IMG/VR virus record: IMGVR_UViG_3300028558_000018
Coordinates: 80,390-144,389 of that record
Source: a virus
Direction: 5' to 3' (one strand)
Length of the DNA: 64,000 nucleotides
Position 1 is the stretch's first letter. Each line of letters starts with the position of its first letter. The position numbers and the translations under genes were made by a program. This document shows positions 16,910 through 31,689 of this stretch, in pieces. A model generated the notes under the pieces. That model was not told the origin of the DNA. It did not search any database and was given only the letters and a program-made list of their open reading frames with translations.

Positions 16910-18115
16910 TTAATAAGTTGGAAATGATGATAAATCTACTTCGGTAAGCTGGTAGCCTCCACCAAGCGTAGTCATCATCGTGTTGATTGCGGCCTTCTGC
17001 GGCGGTAAGTCGGTGCCAGCTCCTCCACCAGATATTGTCGCAACGGCCAGTAAAATTAACGAGCTATTAATAATAAGAAAAGATGGGCTTCCACTATCTC
17101 CACCTATTAAAAATTCATCAAATTCTAATCTTTTAGAATCAATAGGGGAAACATTATTAGCTAATATATAGCCACTATTTGCCGTATATTGACCGAGCCA
17201 ATCTTTTATAAGAGCTTTTTTTTCTTGATCCGTGCTCATTATAGCTACTCGATACTGCGCGCTTTTGAAGTAGTTAGCATAGTTAGCGGGTAAAACTTTT
17301 GCGAAATTAACACCTGCGGGAACATCGCTATCTAATACCGCCACGCATAAATCTGGAAAATATGGAACGTAAGCAGGGTGAGTAAGTTTGGCCGTTATAG
17401 TGCGAGTTACAACCGTATTATCTGTTTTAACGAAACGCATAATTGTGCCCACCTCTGGTTGATAATGAGCCGCGAATAAAACATGCCGAGGACTAATAAG
17501 CACACCGGCGAAATTTGACCCGCCCTGAGAATTCCAAGGACTCATACAAGTTAAATCGATATCATAGGCCCAGCATGAGACGTTGCGCGTGTAAATTGAA
17601 TTAATATGATCTTGAGTTGTGTAAATTGGTTTCGCGGAAGATGCCGTTTTCCCTGCTATACGAGAATCAACTTGTGCCGAAGCATGGCTACATGCGCACC
17701 CGCTTACCCATGATACAAAAGACGTAGTTAGTTGACCACCTCGCGATGCAAAGTTAAGTGAAAATGGGACCGAGCGAACAGACGAAGCCACTGTAATAAT
17801 AGCTGTGCCATCAGAGGCATATTGAATATTTGACCCTGTTACCGTTGCTATCGCTTCATTAGATGACGTTATAGTAACAATTTGTGATTCCGATCTTACA
17901 TTATTGATAATGGATAAATTCCAATTGCGAACTTGAGTCGCCGTTGTATAAGACTGTATTACCGCATCATTTACTGTAGATTGTCCAGTCGAAGTTCCGG
18001 ATATTTGAACCCACGAAGGAGTTGGAGTGCTTACATCAAACCAAAATGGATGCAACGAAGCCCCCGTAAACTTGCGCGTCGGTGCGGGGGTTGCCGATCC
18101 TCCATTTAGTATCAT
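16910..18115 (-). CDS. Chymotrypsin-like serine protease with Ig-like domain
   Basis: 401 aa. The triad is readable: His217 in LFAAHYQ (TAAHC-like), Asp255 in FPDLCVAVL (NDIALL-like) and Ser341 in IGGDSGSPSF. Residues 75-120 (VTITSSNEAIATVTG) fit a Big-2 type bacterial Ig-like domain, common in surface-bound phage proteins. No signal peptide is visible. Being between two fibre genes, it is probably a virion-borne protease, either cutting host surface protein or maturing a fibre. Both roles are inference. Confidence 0.8.
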   Translation of the reverse strand: MILNGGSATPAPTRKFTGASLHPFWFDVSTPTPSWVQISGTSTGQSTVNDAVIQSYTTATQVRNWNLSIINNVRSESQIVTITSSNEAIATVTGSNIQYASDGTAIITVASSVRSVPFSLNFASRGGQLTTSFVSWVSGCACSHASAQVDSRIAGKTASSAKPIYTTQDHINSIYTRNVSCWAYDIDLTCMSPWNSQGGSNFAGVLISPRHVLFAAHYQPEVGTIMRFVKTDNTVVTRTITAKLTHPAYVPYFPDLCVAVLDSDVPAGVNFAKVLPANYANYFKSAQYRVAIMSTDQEKKALIKDWLGQYTANSGYILANNVSPIDSKRLEFDEFLIGGDSGSPSFLIINSSLILLAVATISGGGAGTDLPPQKAAINTMMTTLGGGYQLTEVDLSSFPTY

Positions 18116-18118
18116 AAT

Positions 18119-19465
18119 TTATTTCCCGACCCAGCCCGTATTACCCGCGCCAGATTCTTTAACATAAAGCGTAGTCGCCGCGCCACCATCAGTTCTTAAA
18201 AAAAGAGAGCCTACATTGGCCGTTACAACCGATTCGGGCGATCCTGTCCCCGTTTTAATAATGATTCCAGAGTTACTTATGTCTATCGCGCCGCCCGCCG
18301 CACTTGCGCCCGCAGAGGTGTTGATGGAGCCGCCTGCGCGGATGCCGTTGGCGGAAGTCGTGATGGAACCAGCGGCCCCGCCGACTGTATTTCCAGATGC
18401 AGCACCGCCGACCATCAAAAGAGACCCGCCAATGCCGCCTGCGCCTCCTATTGCGCCTCCCGTTCCTGCCGCGCCGTCTCCGCCGTTTGATACGATTTGA
18501 CCAGTGGCACCACCAGCCCCTCCGGTTTCGCCTGCGTTTCCGCCAGCACCCCCAGAACCGCCAACAATAGACAAAGCGCCGTTGGTAAGTTGGCCAACTA
18601 TACCGCCAGCACCACCAGCGGCAGACGGTCCTCCCGCTCCACCATTGCCACCCCGAACGGTTATTGCACGAGCATTCGCACCAGCACCGCCTGCTCCGCC
18701 TGCTCCGCCCGCTCCGCCCGTGCCACCCCTGATAGAAAACGTGCTTGTTGCTCCGCCCGCACCGCCGTTGGCACCGCTTCCGCCTGCGCCGCCATTTCCG
18801 CCATAGACCGCAAGAGGGACCGATGCGCCACCCCCGCCATTGCCGCCATTTCCGGTGCCGGTAGCGTGATTAGCTCCGCCATTGCCGCTACGAACATCAA
18901 CTGTTGGCGTGTTTGTCGATCCAACCGAACCAACCGTTCCAGAGCCACCTAGGTTTGCGCCAGCGACAGCCAGAGCGGTCTTCTGCACGACAAGCGAGTT
19001 AGCGGAAATAAGAACGCCACCGAGCGTCGCACCGTCGCCCATGTAAATGTATTTCGTGTCCGTCGCGTAGCCGAACTCACCCGAGGCCAGTGTAATGACC
19101 GCGAGTTCCGCCGCCGTTCCTTGGCGCACAATGACCTGAGCGGGGCCAGCGGGAGGCAGCACAACGTATCCGTTTTCGTTCGCGAGGTTCGCCAGATCGA
19201 CTATTACATAGTTGTTTCCCGTCGCCGTGACTTGGACCAGTTGGCCTATTTGGGAGGGAGGGGAAACGAGGGCGAAACGAACCGTATCGTCTGCAACCAC
19301 AGAAGCAATATTAATCTTTAAATCAAGCCCAGATTTTAACCCTTGCGGCGTAATAGCTTTAGTCGTATCGGTCCCTATTACGGCTTCTCCAGTTGTAGCC
19401 AGTTGAATAACCCCAATTTCAGTAATTGATGCATTAGGAATCGGTTCAAGAATATTATAGGGCAT
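18119..19465 (-). CDS. Gly-rich tail fibre/adhesin
   Basis: 448 aa. The N-terminus (EPIPNASITEIGVIQLATTG, then KAITPQGL) is a T-even-like fibre module shared with the second fibre. Residues 175-380 are extremely Gly-rich with about ten GGxGGAGG-type blocks separated by beta-strand-like stretches. This recalls polyglycine-II bundles of the S16 gp38 adhesin type, where variable loops bind the receptor. Codons are GC-rich. It probably forms, or caps, a receptor-binding fibre. Confidence 0.8.
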   Translation of the reverse strand: MPYNILEPIPNASITEIGVIQLATTGEAVIGTDTTKAITPQGLKSGLDLKINIASVVADDTVRFALVSPPSQIGQLVQVTATGNNYVIVDLANLANENGYVVLPPAGPAQVIVRQGTAAELAVITLASGEFGYATDTKYIYMGDGATLGGVLISANSLVVQKTALAVAGANLGGSGTVGSVGSTNTPTVDVRSGNGGANHATGTGNGGNGGGGASVPLAVYGGNGGAGGSGANGGAGGATSTFSIRGGTGGAGGAGGAGGAGANARAITVRGGNGGAGGPSAAGGAGGIVGQLTNGALSIVGGSGGAGGNAGETGGAGGATGQIVSNGGDGAAGTGGAIGGAGGIGGSLLMVGGAASGNTVGGAAGSITTSANGIRAGGSINTSAGASAAGGAIDISNSGIIIKTGTGSPESVVTANVGSLFLRTDGGAATTLYVKESGAGNTGWVGK

Positions 19466-28173: not shown

Positions 28174-28569
28174 TTAAATAGCAAAATATTTTTTAAATCC
28201 TTCGAAAGATTTAATATCAATATTGTCTTCAAAAGCATATTTACTAAATAAACATTGCTTTTCACCTTGGAATACTGAATAGGAGGGAATTTCTATAATT
28301 CGCAACGTCGCCCCGCCAATATCCAATAATTCCTCAACCGCTCCTATTGGAAACCAATTTAACAATTGTTCAAAAGAAGCAAACCCAAATAGAAAATTAT
28401 TATTACCAATTTTATTATAATGCGGGGTCATTCCTTTATCGTTCATTGGCGAAGGGGTGTTTGGAGAACGTATTAAATCAAAATTTTCCATTATTTGGTC
28501 AATATATTGATTTACACCCCTTGCTTGATAAATTCCCTGACTTTGATATTCAAAACGATAAATTTTCAT
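28174..28569 (-). CDS. Conserved phage hypothetical protein
   Basis: 131 aa. The pattern YRFEY...GIYQ...NDKGM and FGFASFEQLLNWF recurs in small phage proteins of unknown function; I recognise it only by pattern. Its ATG is 7 nt after the -10 box. Confidence 0.75.
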   Translation of the reverse strand: MKIYRFEYQSQGIYQARGVNQYIDQIMENFDLIRSPNTPSPMNDKGMTPHYNKIGNNNFLFGFASFEQLLNWFPIGAVEELLDIGGATLRIIEIPSYSVFQGEKQCLFSKYAFEDNIDIKSFEGFKKYFAI

Positions 28570-28604: not shown

Positions 28605-28748
28605 TTTAATTTTAACAAGTTTAAATCTAACTAATAACCCCCTATAATCCCCCTTAGTGTTATTACGAAAAAATTCGCGAGCAAATAAAGAATAAAATTA
28701 AATAAAAACTTATTGACTTAACTATTCAACTATGATTCATTATATTCA

Positions 28749-28854
28749 TGGTGAGTAAGGTTCAATCCTGAAAGCGATTTGCGGGTTAAAACCTTAGAGT
28801 GGGGCACCAAACCGTGCGCGGATTCCTAAAATCGGCCCGCGATTTAAGAACATT
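28749..28854 (-). ncRNA. Structured RNA candidate with perfect promoter
   Basis: No ORF. On the minus strand the predicted RNA has a GC hairpin (CGCGG/CCGCG, 28817-28841), a long-range 7-bp pairing TAAGGTT/AACCTTA (28790-28796 with 28756-28762) closed outside by GGTG/CACC, and an internal hairpin TTCA/TGAA. It starts just after the only TTGACA/TATAAT promoter of the window. The 3' end reads ACTCACCA, tRNA-like, but no tRNA cloverleaf fits and no riboswitch class was recognised. Confidence 0.55.
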
Positions 28855-28860
28855 TGGAAA

Positions 28861-28890
28861 ATTATAGCATAAAAATTAATATTGTGTCAA
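28861..28890 (-). promoter_or_regulatory. Consensus promoter of the RNA candidate
   Basis: TTGACA (28885-28890), 18 nt, TATAAT (28861-28866), both perfect. Confidence 0.75.
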
Positions 28891-28948: not shown

Positions 28949-28977
28949 AAAAAAGCCGCAAAGAATAATCTCGCGGC
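28949..28977 (-). terminator. Terminator of the SHD1-like gene
   Basis: GCCGC/GCGGC stem extended by AGA/TCT, then six T on the minus strand; 18 nt past the stop. Confidence 0.75.
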
Positions 28978-28994
28978 GGATTAACTAAATTAAA

Positions 28995-29519
28995 TTACTT
29001 ATCGTTGACTTTAATTGATTTAACATTCCATGAGTCAATTAGGGGCTTAATTATCTTATTGAGGTAATTCTTTTGGAATTCATTCAATGGGGTCAAACTC
29101 GCGCCCAAATCTTCCCTCAATTGTTTATTTACTGCATCTAAATCGCCCTTAATAAACAATCCCCTATATTTAGCTCTTAATTCAACTAATTGTTTAAATT
29201 GTTTATTTGCGCCTAATCTATCGGTAATTAACGGATCATAGTCTAAATCATTACGAATAATCTTATTATAATATTCGCGTTTATAAGCATTTATTTTAAT
29301 TTTACTATTATCACCTAATTTATCAATCGGATAATGATATATCTGTTCATTAACCAAAATAGTAATAGAATCAATTTCAATTGAGAGCAATTTACCATTA
29401 ATTTTTTCACCTAATTGATTTTCCCAAGTGGAATTAGTTTTTGCGTCAACTATTTGCGGCGCAATATCTTGCGCGTGAATAATTCCGGCCAAAAACAAAA
29501 TTAAAAATGATTTTCTCAT
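28995..29519 (-). CDS. Secreted SHD1-like protein
   Basis: 174 aa. The signal peptide (MRKSFLILFLAGIIHAQ) ends near residue 17. Residues 30-80 (TWENQLGEKINGKLLSIEIDSITI...YPIDKLGDNSK) follow the SHD1 pattern, common in exported proteins of Planctomycetes and Verrucomicrobia. It would be exported to the periplasm, and with its own promoter and terminator it is a self-contained unit; a superinfection or envelope role is speculative. Confidence 0.65.
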   Translation of the reverse strand: MRKSFLILFLAGIIHAQDIAPQIVDAKTNSTWENQLGEKINGKLLSIEIDSITILVNEQIYHYPIDKLGDNSKIKINAYKREYYNKIIRNDLDYDPLITDRLGANKQFKQLVELRAKYRGLFIKGDLDAVNKQLREDLGASLTPLNEFQKNYLNKIIKPLIDSWNVKSIKVNDK

Positions 29520-30339: not shown

Positions 30340-31689
30340 TCAATAGTTATTGAATTTAAAGATTTCACCAAACGGAGGCTTAAATGTAGAATTGTCTTCG
30401 ATAAGTCCCCACAAAATCGGGTAATCAGGAGAAATCTCGCCAAAGCTATTGCAATACCCATCCGTTAAAATAATTGCGCCTTTAATATCTCCCAAATCAT
30501 TATTGGCGATATATTTAAAGATTTCTTTATAATCGGTGCCGCCGCCACCTTTAGGCAAGGGCTTAATATCGCTATTAGGTTCAAATACTTGAATATTTTG
30601 AATAATGGTGTCAAAATAAATTACGGTTAGCTCGTAATTATCTTTACTCACGTTTTCCAATATATTGACGGCCTCATTAACCATATTAGTCACGTCGCGC
30701 AAATTGACGCTCCCACTTGTATCTATTGCAATGACGATTTTCCCTAATTCCTGACTAAATAGTGTCGGCAAAATAATTCCGCGCCCCAAATGACGTTTAT
30801 TTACGTGACTAAATGAATAATCTTTAGCGCAATTTTCGCAAATAAAACGATTCAATATCTCTTGCCAATCAAATGAAGGCTTTTGACCATTTTTGATTAT
30901 CTCAATTAGTCCATTGCTAGGTAATTTGCCCGCCATTTTCGCTGCATTTTCCGCCAATTTAGATTGAACCTTGGTCAATTCCTCAATAGAATCATCAATG
31001 GGAGCTTTAATTTCACCAAATGTTTTTGGCTCGCCATCATTTGACTCATTTTCTTCACCATTATTAGATTCACTTGAATCGCCAGAATTATCGCCGGATT
31101 CGTCGCTATTTTCTCCCTTATCGCCCTTCGATTTATCTTGTTTATCGGATATATCAGATTTATCGCCTTTATCAGCTTTTTCATCCGATTTCTCGCCTTT
31201 GCCGTCTCCCTTTTCCTTGGATTTGTCACTCTTTTGTTTATTCTGGGAATTTTGCTTATTCTGCTCCTCTTTCTTTTTATCCTCTTCAATTCCCAAAAGA
31301 CGATAAATATCCTCTGCGGATTTGCCCGTATATTTAACATCAATTAGGACGCCTTTTGGGAGAATAAATCCTGCGCGAAGCAATTCACCATTAAGCGAAT
31401 AATCCGTGGCATAATTCCAACGCTTAATTTCTTTTCCCTTCATCCGCCCCAAATGATTTGCGCATAAATGACAAACTTCATGAGCGAGAACTCCTTTAAT
31501 TTCTTGAATAGTGAGGGAATCAGCAAATTCGCTATTGTAGAATAAATGTTTACCATCTACGCAAAAGGTAGGGTTATTCGTGGAATTGTCTTCAATAATC
31601 TGTTGCTGCAAAATCATTGAAGCAAAAAACGGATTATCGAAAATTAACGAATTAATTGCCGCCTTAACCTTTGGGTGATTAACATTCAT
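30340..31689 (-). CDS. Metallopeptidase-like protein with VWA domain
   Basis: 449 aa, three parts. Residues 60-130 hold an HEVCH zinc site (His70, Glu71, His74) of the DUF2201 N-terminal type. Residues 136-222 are a low-complexity K/D/E/S/N linker. The C-terminus (about 315-449) is a VWA fold with a MIDAS: DTSGS at 323-327, GGGGTD and ILTDGY. Such proteins often work with MoxR ATPases, one encoded next upstream. Its role in phages is unknown; CobT-type chelatase partners are the named relatives. Confidence 0.85.
   Translation of the reverse strand: MNVNHPKVKAAINSLIFDNPFFASMILQQQIIEDNSTNNPTFCVDGKHLFYNSEFADSLTIQEIKGVLAHEVCHLCANHLGRMKGKEIKRWNYATDYSLNGELLRAGFILPKGVLIDVKYTGKSAEDIYRLLGIEEDKKKEEQNKQNSQNKQKSDKSKEKGDGKGEKSDEKADKGDKSDISDKQDKSKGDKGENSDESGDNSGDSSESNNGEENESNDGEPKTFGEIKAPIDDSIEELTKVQSKLAENAAKMAGKLPSNGLIEIIKNGQKPSFDWQEILNRFICENCAKDYSFSHVNKRHLGRGIILPTLFSQELGKIVIAIDTSGSVNLRDVTNMVNEAVNILENVSKDNYELTVIYFDTIIQNIQVFEPNSDIKPLPKGGGGTDYKEIFKYIANNDLGDIKGAIILTDGYCNSFGEISPDYPILWGLIEDNSTFKPPFGEIFKFNNY

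Follow-up and report, generated by a model that had tools for sequence, protein, structure and literature searches.

Sequence comparison supports a real, conserved and self-contained phage element with a strong promoter and a structured RNA. The element is conserved in three phages, two of its hairpins carry compensatory changes, and promoter-like sequences lie at both of its ends. The best explanation, to which we give a little less than an even chance, is a mutually cis-encoded antisense pair, in which two complementary RNAs would be produced from facing promoters and would control each other.

The host phage and copies of the element

The window, i.e. the whole stretch of DNA analyzed (64,000 nucleotides), comprises positions 80390-144389 of G000, a virus record of 144,389 bases with a GC content of approximately 36%. 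G000 is an uncultured tailed phage (terminase, PhoH, rIIA, and lysozyme genes) for which no close relatives were detected in the phage collection searched. Shine-Dalgarno use in its longer ORFs was 9/120 vs 9/120 in the shuffled control, and TTGACA was observed approximately 35 nt ahead of the ATG at several genes across the whole record. Elsewhere in the window, a peptidase-like ORF in the tail-fibre region adjoins a GC-rich ORF carrying numerous GGxGG-type repeats (16910-19465), and a VWA/metallopeptidase-like protein (30340-31689) is labelled HNH endonuclease by PHROGs and several GenBank records; it contains HEVCH and DTSGS motifs and does not have the look of an HNH endonuclease.

Terminase relatives were found at 54-65% identity, among them G005, an uncultured phage of 71.7 kb in which the MoxR/VWA/lysozyme neighbourhood is kept. 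A MoxR search yielded a second phage, G008 (L116, 172 kb), with the same MoxR/VWA/lysozyme genes. Six homologous copies of the element were identified in these three genomes, with one in the window, three in G005, and two in G008 (Table 1). Among the terminase relatives, L093:9776-10001 and the matching part of L101/L102 contain a terminase gene seemingly interrupted by an intein-like insertion, which ends ...NGFINHNS directly ahead of the conserved part.

Table 1. Coordinates of the element, its parts and its homologous copies (window positions unless a locus is named).
Feature	Coordinates	Strand	Basis or remark
Conserved core between both promoters	28747-28855	plus (inferred folded RNA), minus (complementary RNA)	covariance model, shuffle test
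Putative facing promoter, TTGACT...TTCATT or TTAACT-17-TATATT	28713-28746	plus	9/12 match at best; degenerate in window copy
Long-range 7-bp stem TAAGGTT/AACCTTA	28756-28762 with 28790-28796		57% of cells paired
Predicted hairpin H-A, AGG-UUCAAU-CCU	28758-28769	plus	compensatory changes; weak here (3 bp), 5-7 bp in most other copies
Predicted hairpin H-B, GGG-UUAAAA-CCU	28783-28794	plus	compensatory stem changes, loop kept
Hairpin H-C, GCAC-CAAACC-GUGC	28804-28817	plus	seen in sequence
GC hairpin CGCGG...CCGCG	28817-28841	plus	seen in sequence; one-base overlap with H-C
TTTCCAAA block behind the -10, around the inferred minus-transcript start	28853-28860	minus	TCCAAA identical in 6/6 copies
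Minus-strand promoter	28861-28890	minus	TTGACA, 18 nt, TG-C-TATAAT; 12/12 match, extended -10 TG
Downstream gene, 131 aa, phrog_1106, own promoter-like site	28174-28569	minus	co-directional with the minus-strand promoter
G005 copies	L113:11174-10994, 8187-8035, 6300-6148	all minus	promoter and TTTCCAAA start, near lysozyme gene
G008 copies	L116:16562-16715, 17394-17558	plus	promoter and TTTCCAAA start, near lysozyme gene

A covariance model trained on three copies, with the window copy left out, recovered the two left-out G005/G008 copies at E 8e-16 and 4e-10 and found the window copy as the sole match in the G000 record (28.7 bits, E 0.0046-0.008); these E values are rough because the calibration was short. 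The window's E value under a second model, trained with the window copy included, was discarded as circular. Of the six, the window copy diverges most, and its core, compared with the other five copies with the promoter and CCAAA block left out, scored 318.5 vs 198.0 for dinucleotide shuffles (sd 14.6, z ~8, 0/2000), while the reverse complement of the core scored at background. The element is conserved, and chance similarity is excluded by the model search, the shuffle test, and the pairing test presented below.

In DNA-pattern scans of viral and bacterial collections, true matches were obtained only in G005 and G008; five bacterial matches, including two Crocosphaera-type loci, were attributed to chance. 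The covariance model found nothing in the surroundings of other VWA or MoxR genes from phages (82 loci, best E 0.32) and nothing convincing in records of more distant terminase relatives (best E 0.15).

Hairpins, strand and identity of the RNA

The sequence-only reading had proposed a structured RNA on the minus strand with a GC hairpin, a long-range 7-bp stem closed by GGTG/CACC pairs, and a CACCA end. The GC hairpin is present; its counterpart in each of the other five copies is a 26-nt segment, to which the window copy adds 11 bases. The CACCA end and the GGTG/CACC pairs are also literally there, but the CACCA end is particular to the window copy. The 7-bp stem can likewise be read in the window, where single-sequence folding prefers it as a competing fold, but it is broken in relatives, and the compensatory changes that had been named as its check were found nowhere among the copies, no pair having changed on both sides. 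It is furthermore mutually exclusive with H-A and H-B, the two predicted hairpins in which compensatory changes across the copies are present. A structured RNA with pairings conserved in relatives was thus upheld, but in other hairpins than the stem originally named.

The H-B stem varies across copies as CCG/CGG, CGG/CCG, GGG/CCC, and GGAG/CUCC, with its A/U-rich loop kept. When H-A and H-B were examined together in a structure-fitted alignment, 93% of cells were paired vs 67% in shuffles, and 6/8 pairs had changed on both sides. An alignment not fitted to structure, consisting of four sequences with the window copy among them, gave 90% vs 70%, falling to 55% after a one-column slide. The independent compensatory events are few, since the six copies come from only three genomes and several are paralogs. 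H-C has a counterpart in the form of a 6-bp stem in both G008 copies, although its pairing is not kept position by position, and the block around it is near-identical between copies within one genome and different from genome to genome. On energy alone the window stretch is not special relative to dinucleotide shuffles (z of -0.17 and -0.43 for the minus and plus strands, respectively); z values for the six copies ranged from +0.7 to -2.2, with at most perhaps one copy folding clearly better than its shuffles.

Consensus folding energy was better for the plus strand, opposite the perfect promoter, in 5/5 alignments and clearly so in four. Values were -25.7 vs -11.5 kcal/mol (plus vs minus) for alignment A11, a gain derived partly from promoter sequence outside the predicted transcript, and -10.9 vs -4.5 for A15; the poorly aligned A14 yielded hardly any consensus structure on either strand. 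The G-U pair in H-B on the plus strand corresponds to A.C on the minus strand, and in total three plus-strand G-U pairs are A.C on the minus strand with none reversed. Single-sequence free energy was lower on the plus strand in 5/6 copies. Because consensus folds, G-U pairs, and single-sequence energies agree, the plus strand of the window is the probable source of the folded RNA, as judged by comparison over a modest number of events. The minus strand assigned to it earlier, with the opposite strand left unconsidered, is therefore probably the wrong one.

With respect to identity, ARAGORN detected no tRNA at the element, and Rfam at the gathering score returned no match there and only a tRNA in the window, in agreement with the earlier statement that no tRNA or riboswitch class fits. 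The covariance search that had been suggested was also informative, with no Rfam match at the gathering score and with our own model finding both the related-phage copies and the window copy. A tRNA/tmRNA fold was recognised by neither ARAGORN nor Rfam; the likeness raised by GGGTCGAATCCC, a T-arm-like sequence found only in both copies of the 172-kb phage, was rejected as missed by both programs and confined to one genome. A permissive search matched Rfam Avashort_thermometer (RF02699) to window 28757-28818 (+) at 29 bits, where the cut-off is 88 bits (local E 0.0014), including a GCGA tetraloop hairpin. Its fold includes the 7-bp stem, a pairing not preserved in the other copies, and the match, though unusually good, is probably due to chance. 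Likeness to a CRISPR repeat (E 6.4) was equally attributed to chance, and RNA I of ColE1 was found neither at the gathering score nor among the permissive local Rfam matches. The predicted RNA is a new family with no Rfam match.

Promoters at both ends and genomic setting

The perfect TTGACA/TATAAT pair was reported as the only one seen in the window. This holds for the entire 144-kb record, in which a perfect pair with a 15-18 nt spacer occurs once and in the reversed control not at all. The -35/-10 layout, with TG ahead of the -10, is kept in 6/6 copies, and the start site of the minus transcript was placed from promoter spacing.

A second, facing promoter had been missed. When the covariance model was refined, it picked fragments elsewhere that are reverse complements of ordinary phage promoters, and the kept far-end block AAGATAGCA-N16-ACAAGCTTTTTTT is the reverse complement of AAAAAAAGCTTGT-N16-TGCTATCTT. 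The far-end block being the reverse complement of gene promoters, two putative promoters face each other in each element. In the window, the facing promoter aligns with TTGTTT-N16-TGCTATCTT of the other copies, a gene-promoter type in these phages. Sites of the form TTG...TGNTATCTT number seven in G008 vs one in the reversed control, and 5/6 of the non-element sites lie 21-48 nt ahead of an ORF. Promoter-like sequences at both ends are clear in five copies; in the window the plus-strand one is degenerate. The plus-strand RNA would be transcribed from this facing promoter, and the perfect minus-strand promoter would then produce the complementary RNA. In the region L113:11220-11800 (-) of G005 (~53.2-53.8 kb), a row of further TTGACA promoters was observed whose predicted transcripts are G-rich at the start (e.g. 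CCGGGGTGGGGCTGGGGCGG), together with close face-to-face promoter pairs lacking the core.

The element sits between two minus-strand genes (28174-28569 and 28995-29519). As the sequence-only reading had placed it, a terminator-like hairpin lies upstream of the perfect promoter (28955-28977) and a promoter-like site downstream (28604-28577, 9/12 match). The gene adjoining the element differs from copy to copy, so that the same downstream gene does not accompany the RNA as it would an mRNA leader; no gene follows L116:17394-17558 in the direction of that copy, and at the other copies the closest genes downstream carry promoter-like sequences of their own. For these reasons the element appears self-contained, consistent with the proposal that it forms its own transcription unit.

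The roughly 100 nt past the promoter had been described as lacking an ORF, and no real gene was found there. No start codon or frame is common to the six copies, as would be expected of a small protein or leader peptide. Four copies have ACG or ACT in place of the start-block ATG and two lack the far-end ATG, and consequently both a leaderless ORF from AAATG and a tiny far-end ORF (ATG-xxx-AAA-AGR-TAG) were rejected. A 62-aa frame opens through one copy, opposite the perfect-type promoter (L116:17278-17466, minus strand); the other copies are without it.

Competing explanations and known systems

As an antisense pair, the element would be a phage locus of ~200 bp in which a core of ~100-130 bp is flanked by two inward-facing sigma70-type promoters. 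A structured plus-strand RNA and a minus-strand RNA from the perfect promoter, overlapping and complementary, would act on each other through hairpin-loop pairing and colliding transcription, and the balance of the two promoters would set the level of active RNA. We infer that both strands are transcribed, that the folded product comes from the plus strand, and that the two RNAs regulate each other. Should only the structured plus-strand RNA matter, whether as a decoy or as a small phage RNA acting in trans, with a minus promoter that tunes or interferes, the folding and G-U preference for the plus strand and the occurrence of up to three copies per genome would be accounted for, and the genome-specific block around H-C would likewise be consistent with a segment that recognises targets in trans. 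We regard this as unlikely, however, as, of the two promoters in the window copy, that on the minus strand is the stronger, and its layout is retained in every copy. The original proposal of a trans-acting small RNA from the minus strand can draw on the perfect promoter with its extended -10, the conserved start block TTTCCAAA, and an A-tract/U-tract hairpin predicted by RNAalifold at the far end. It is decidedly unlikely, given that folding and the G-U pattern favour the opposite strand, that the A-tract of the facing promoter accounts for the U-tract end, and that the named 7-bp stem is not conserved. The suggestion that a C-rich minus strand is aimed at Shine-Dalgarno sites was a mere idea and was dropped, phage Shine-Dalgarno use not being above control.

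More doubtful still is a multi-copy face-to-face promoter cassette whose complementary RNAs, as duplexes or decoys, would act on the host; if true, the phage might for example escape host regulation or a defence system, with the genome-specific block aimed at the host. A DNA or RNA site controlling replication or transcription, e.g. a transcript-primed origin, is very improbable. The face-to-face promoters have an RNA I/II-like geometry, and in G000 and the 172-kb phage the cumulative GC skew turns locally at the element, but that turn follows a change of gene orientation, which removes it as an origin mark; moreover, one phage has three copies within 5 kb, and none of the adjoining genes is recognised as a replication gene. 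The lowest probability is given to a mere 5' UTR leader of the 131-aa gene or a chance similarity. In the window the element does precede a gene of the same orientation, but its varying neighbours, the copy without one, and the promoter-like sequences of downstream genes argue against a leader, and the model search, shuffle and pairing tests exclude chance.

Few families of phage non-coding RNA are known. The family described here is backed by comparative evidence, has promoter-like sequences at either end, occurs in several copies per genome, and contains a genome-variable block, and these properties make its synthesis and testing feasible. If the antisense-pair explanation is true, it would represent a compact natural convergent-promoter RNA pair carried by a phage.

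SdsR/RyeA of Escherichia coli comprises opposite small RNAs with convergent promoters and transcriptional interference; it forms a toxin/antitoxin pair, is encoded on the chromosome, and uses sigmaS and sigma70 promoters (PMC6610125). The phage element resembles it in layout, in that opposite RNAs are predicted from facing promoters on opposite strands of one short locus; in contrast, it is multi-copy and phage-borne, and both of its promoters look sigma70-like. The promoters of ColE1 RNA I and RNA II lie approximately 110 bp apart, given the position of the RNA II start. The facing promoters of the phage element are also ~110 bp apart, with predicted hairpins in the overlap. RNA I and RNA II run in opposite directions and carry stem-loops where they overlap (PMC11012335). 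The phage element differs in having no Rfam RNA I match, and while ColE1 RNA II primes replication at a downstream origin, the likeness seen here is one of geometry, the GC-skew turn being no more than suggestive. Antisense RNAs are also made by phages, sar of P22 being of the same kind as lambda OOP. Such RNAs, e.g. lambda OOP, are short and are made against neighbouring transcription (review PMC5415839). The lambda and P22 RNAs lie opposite a protein-coding target, whereas the overlap in the phage element is non-coding and is present up to three times per genome.
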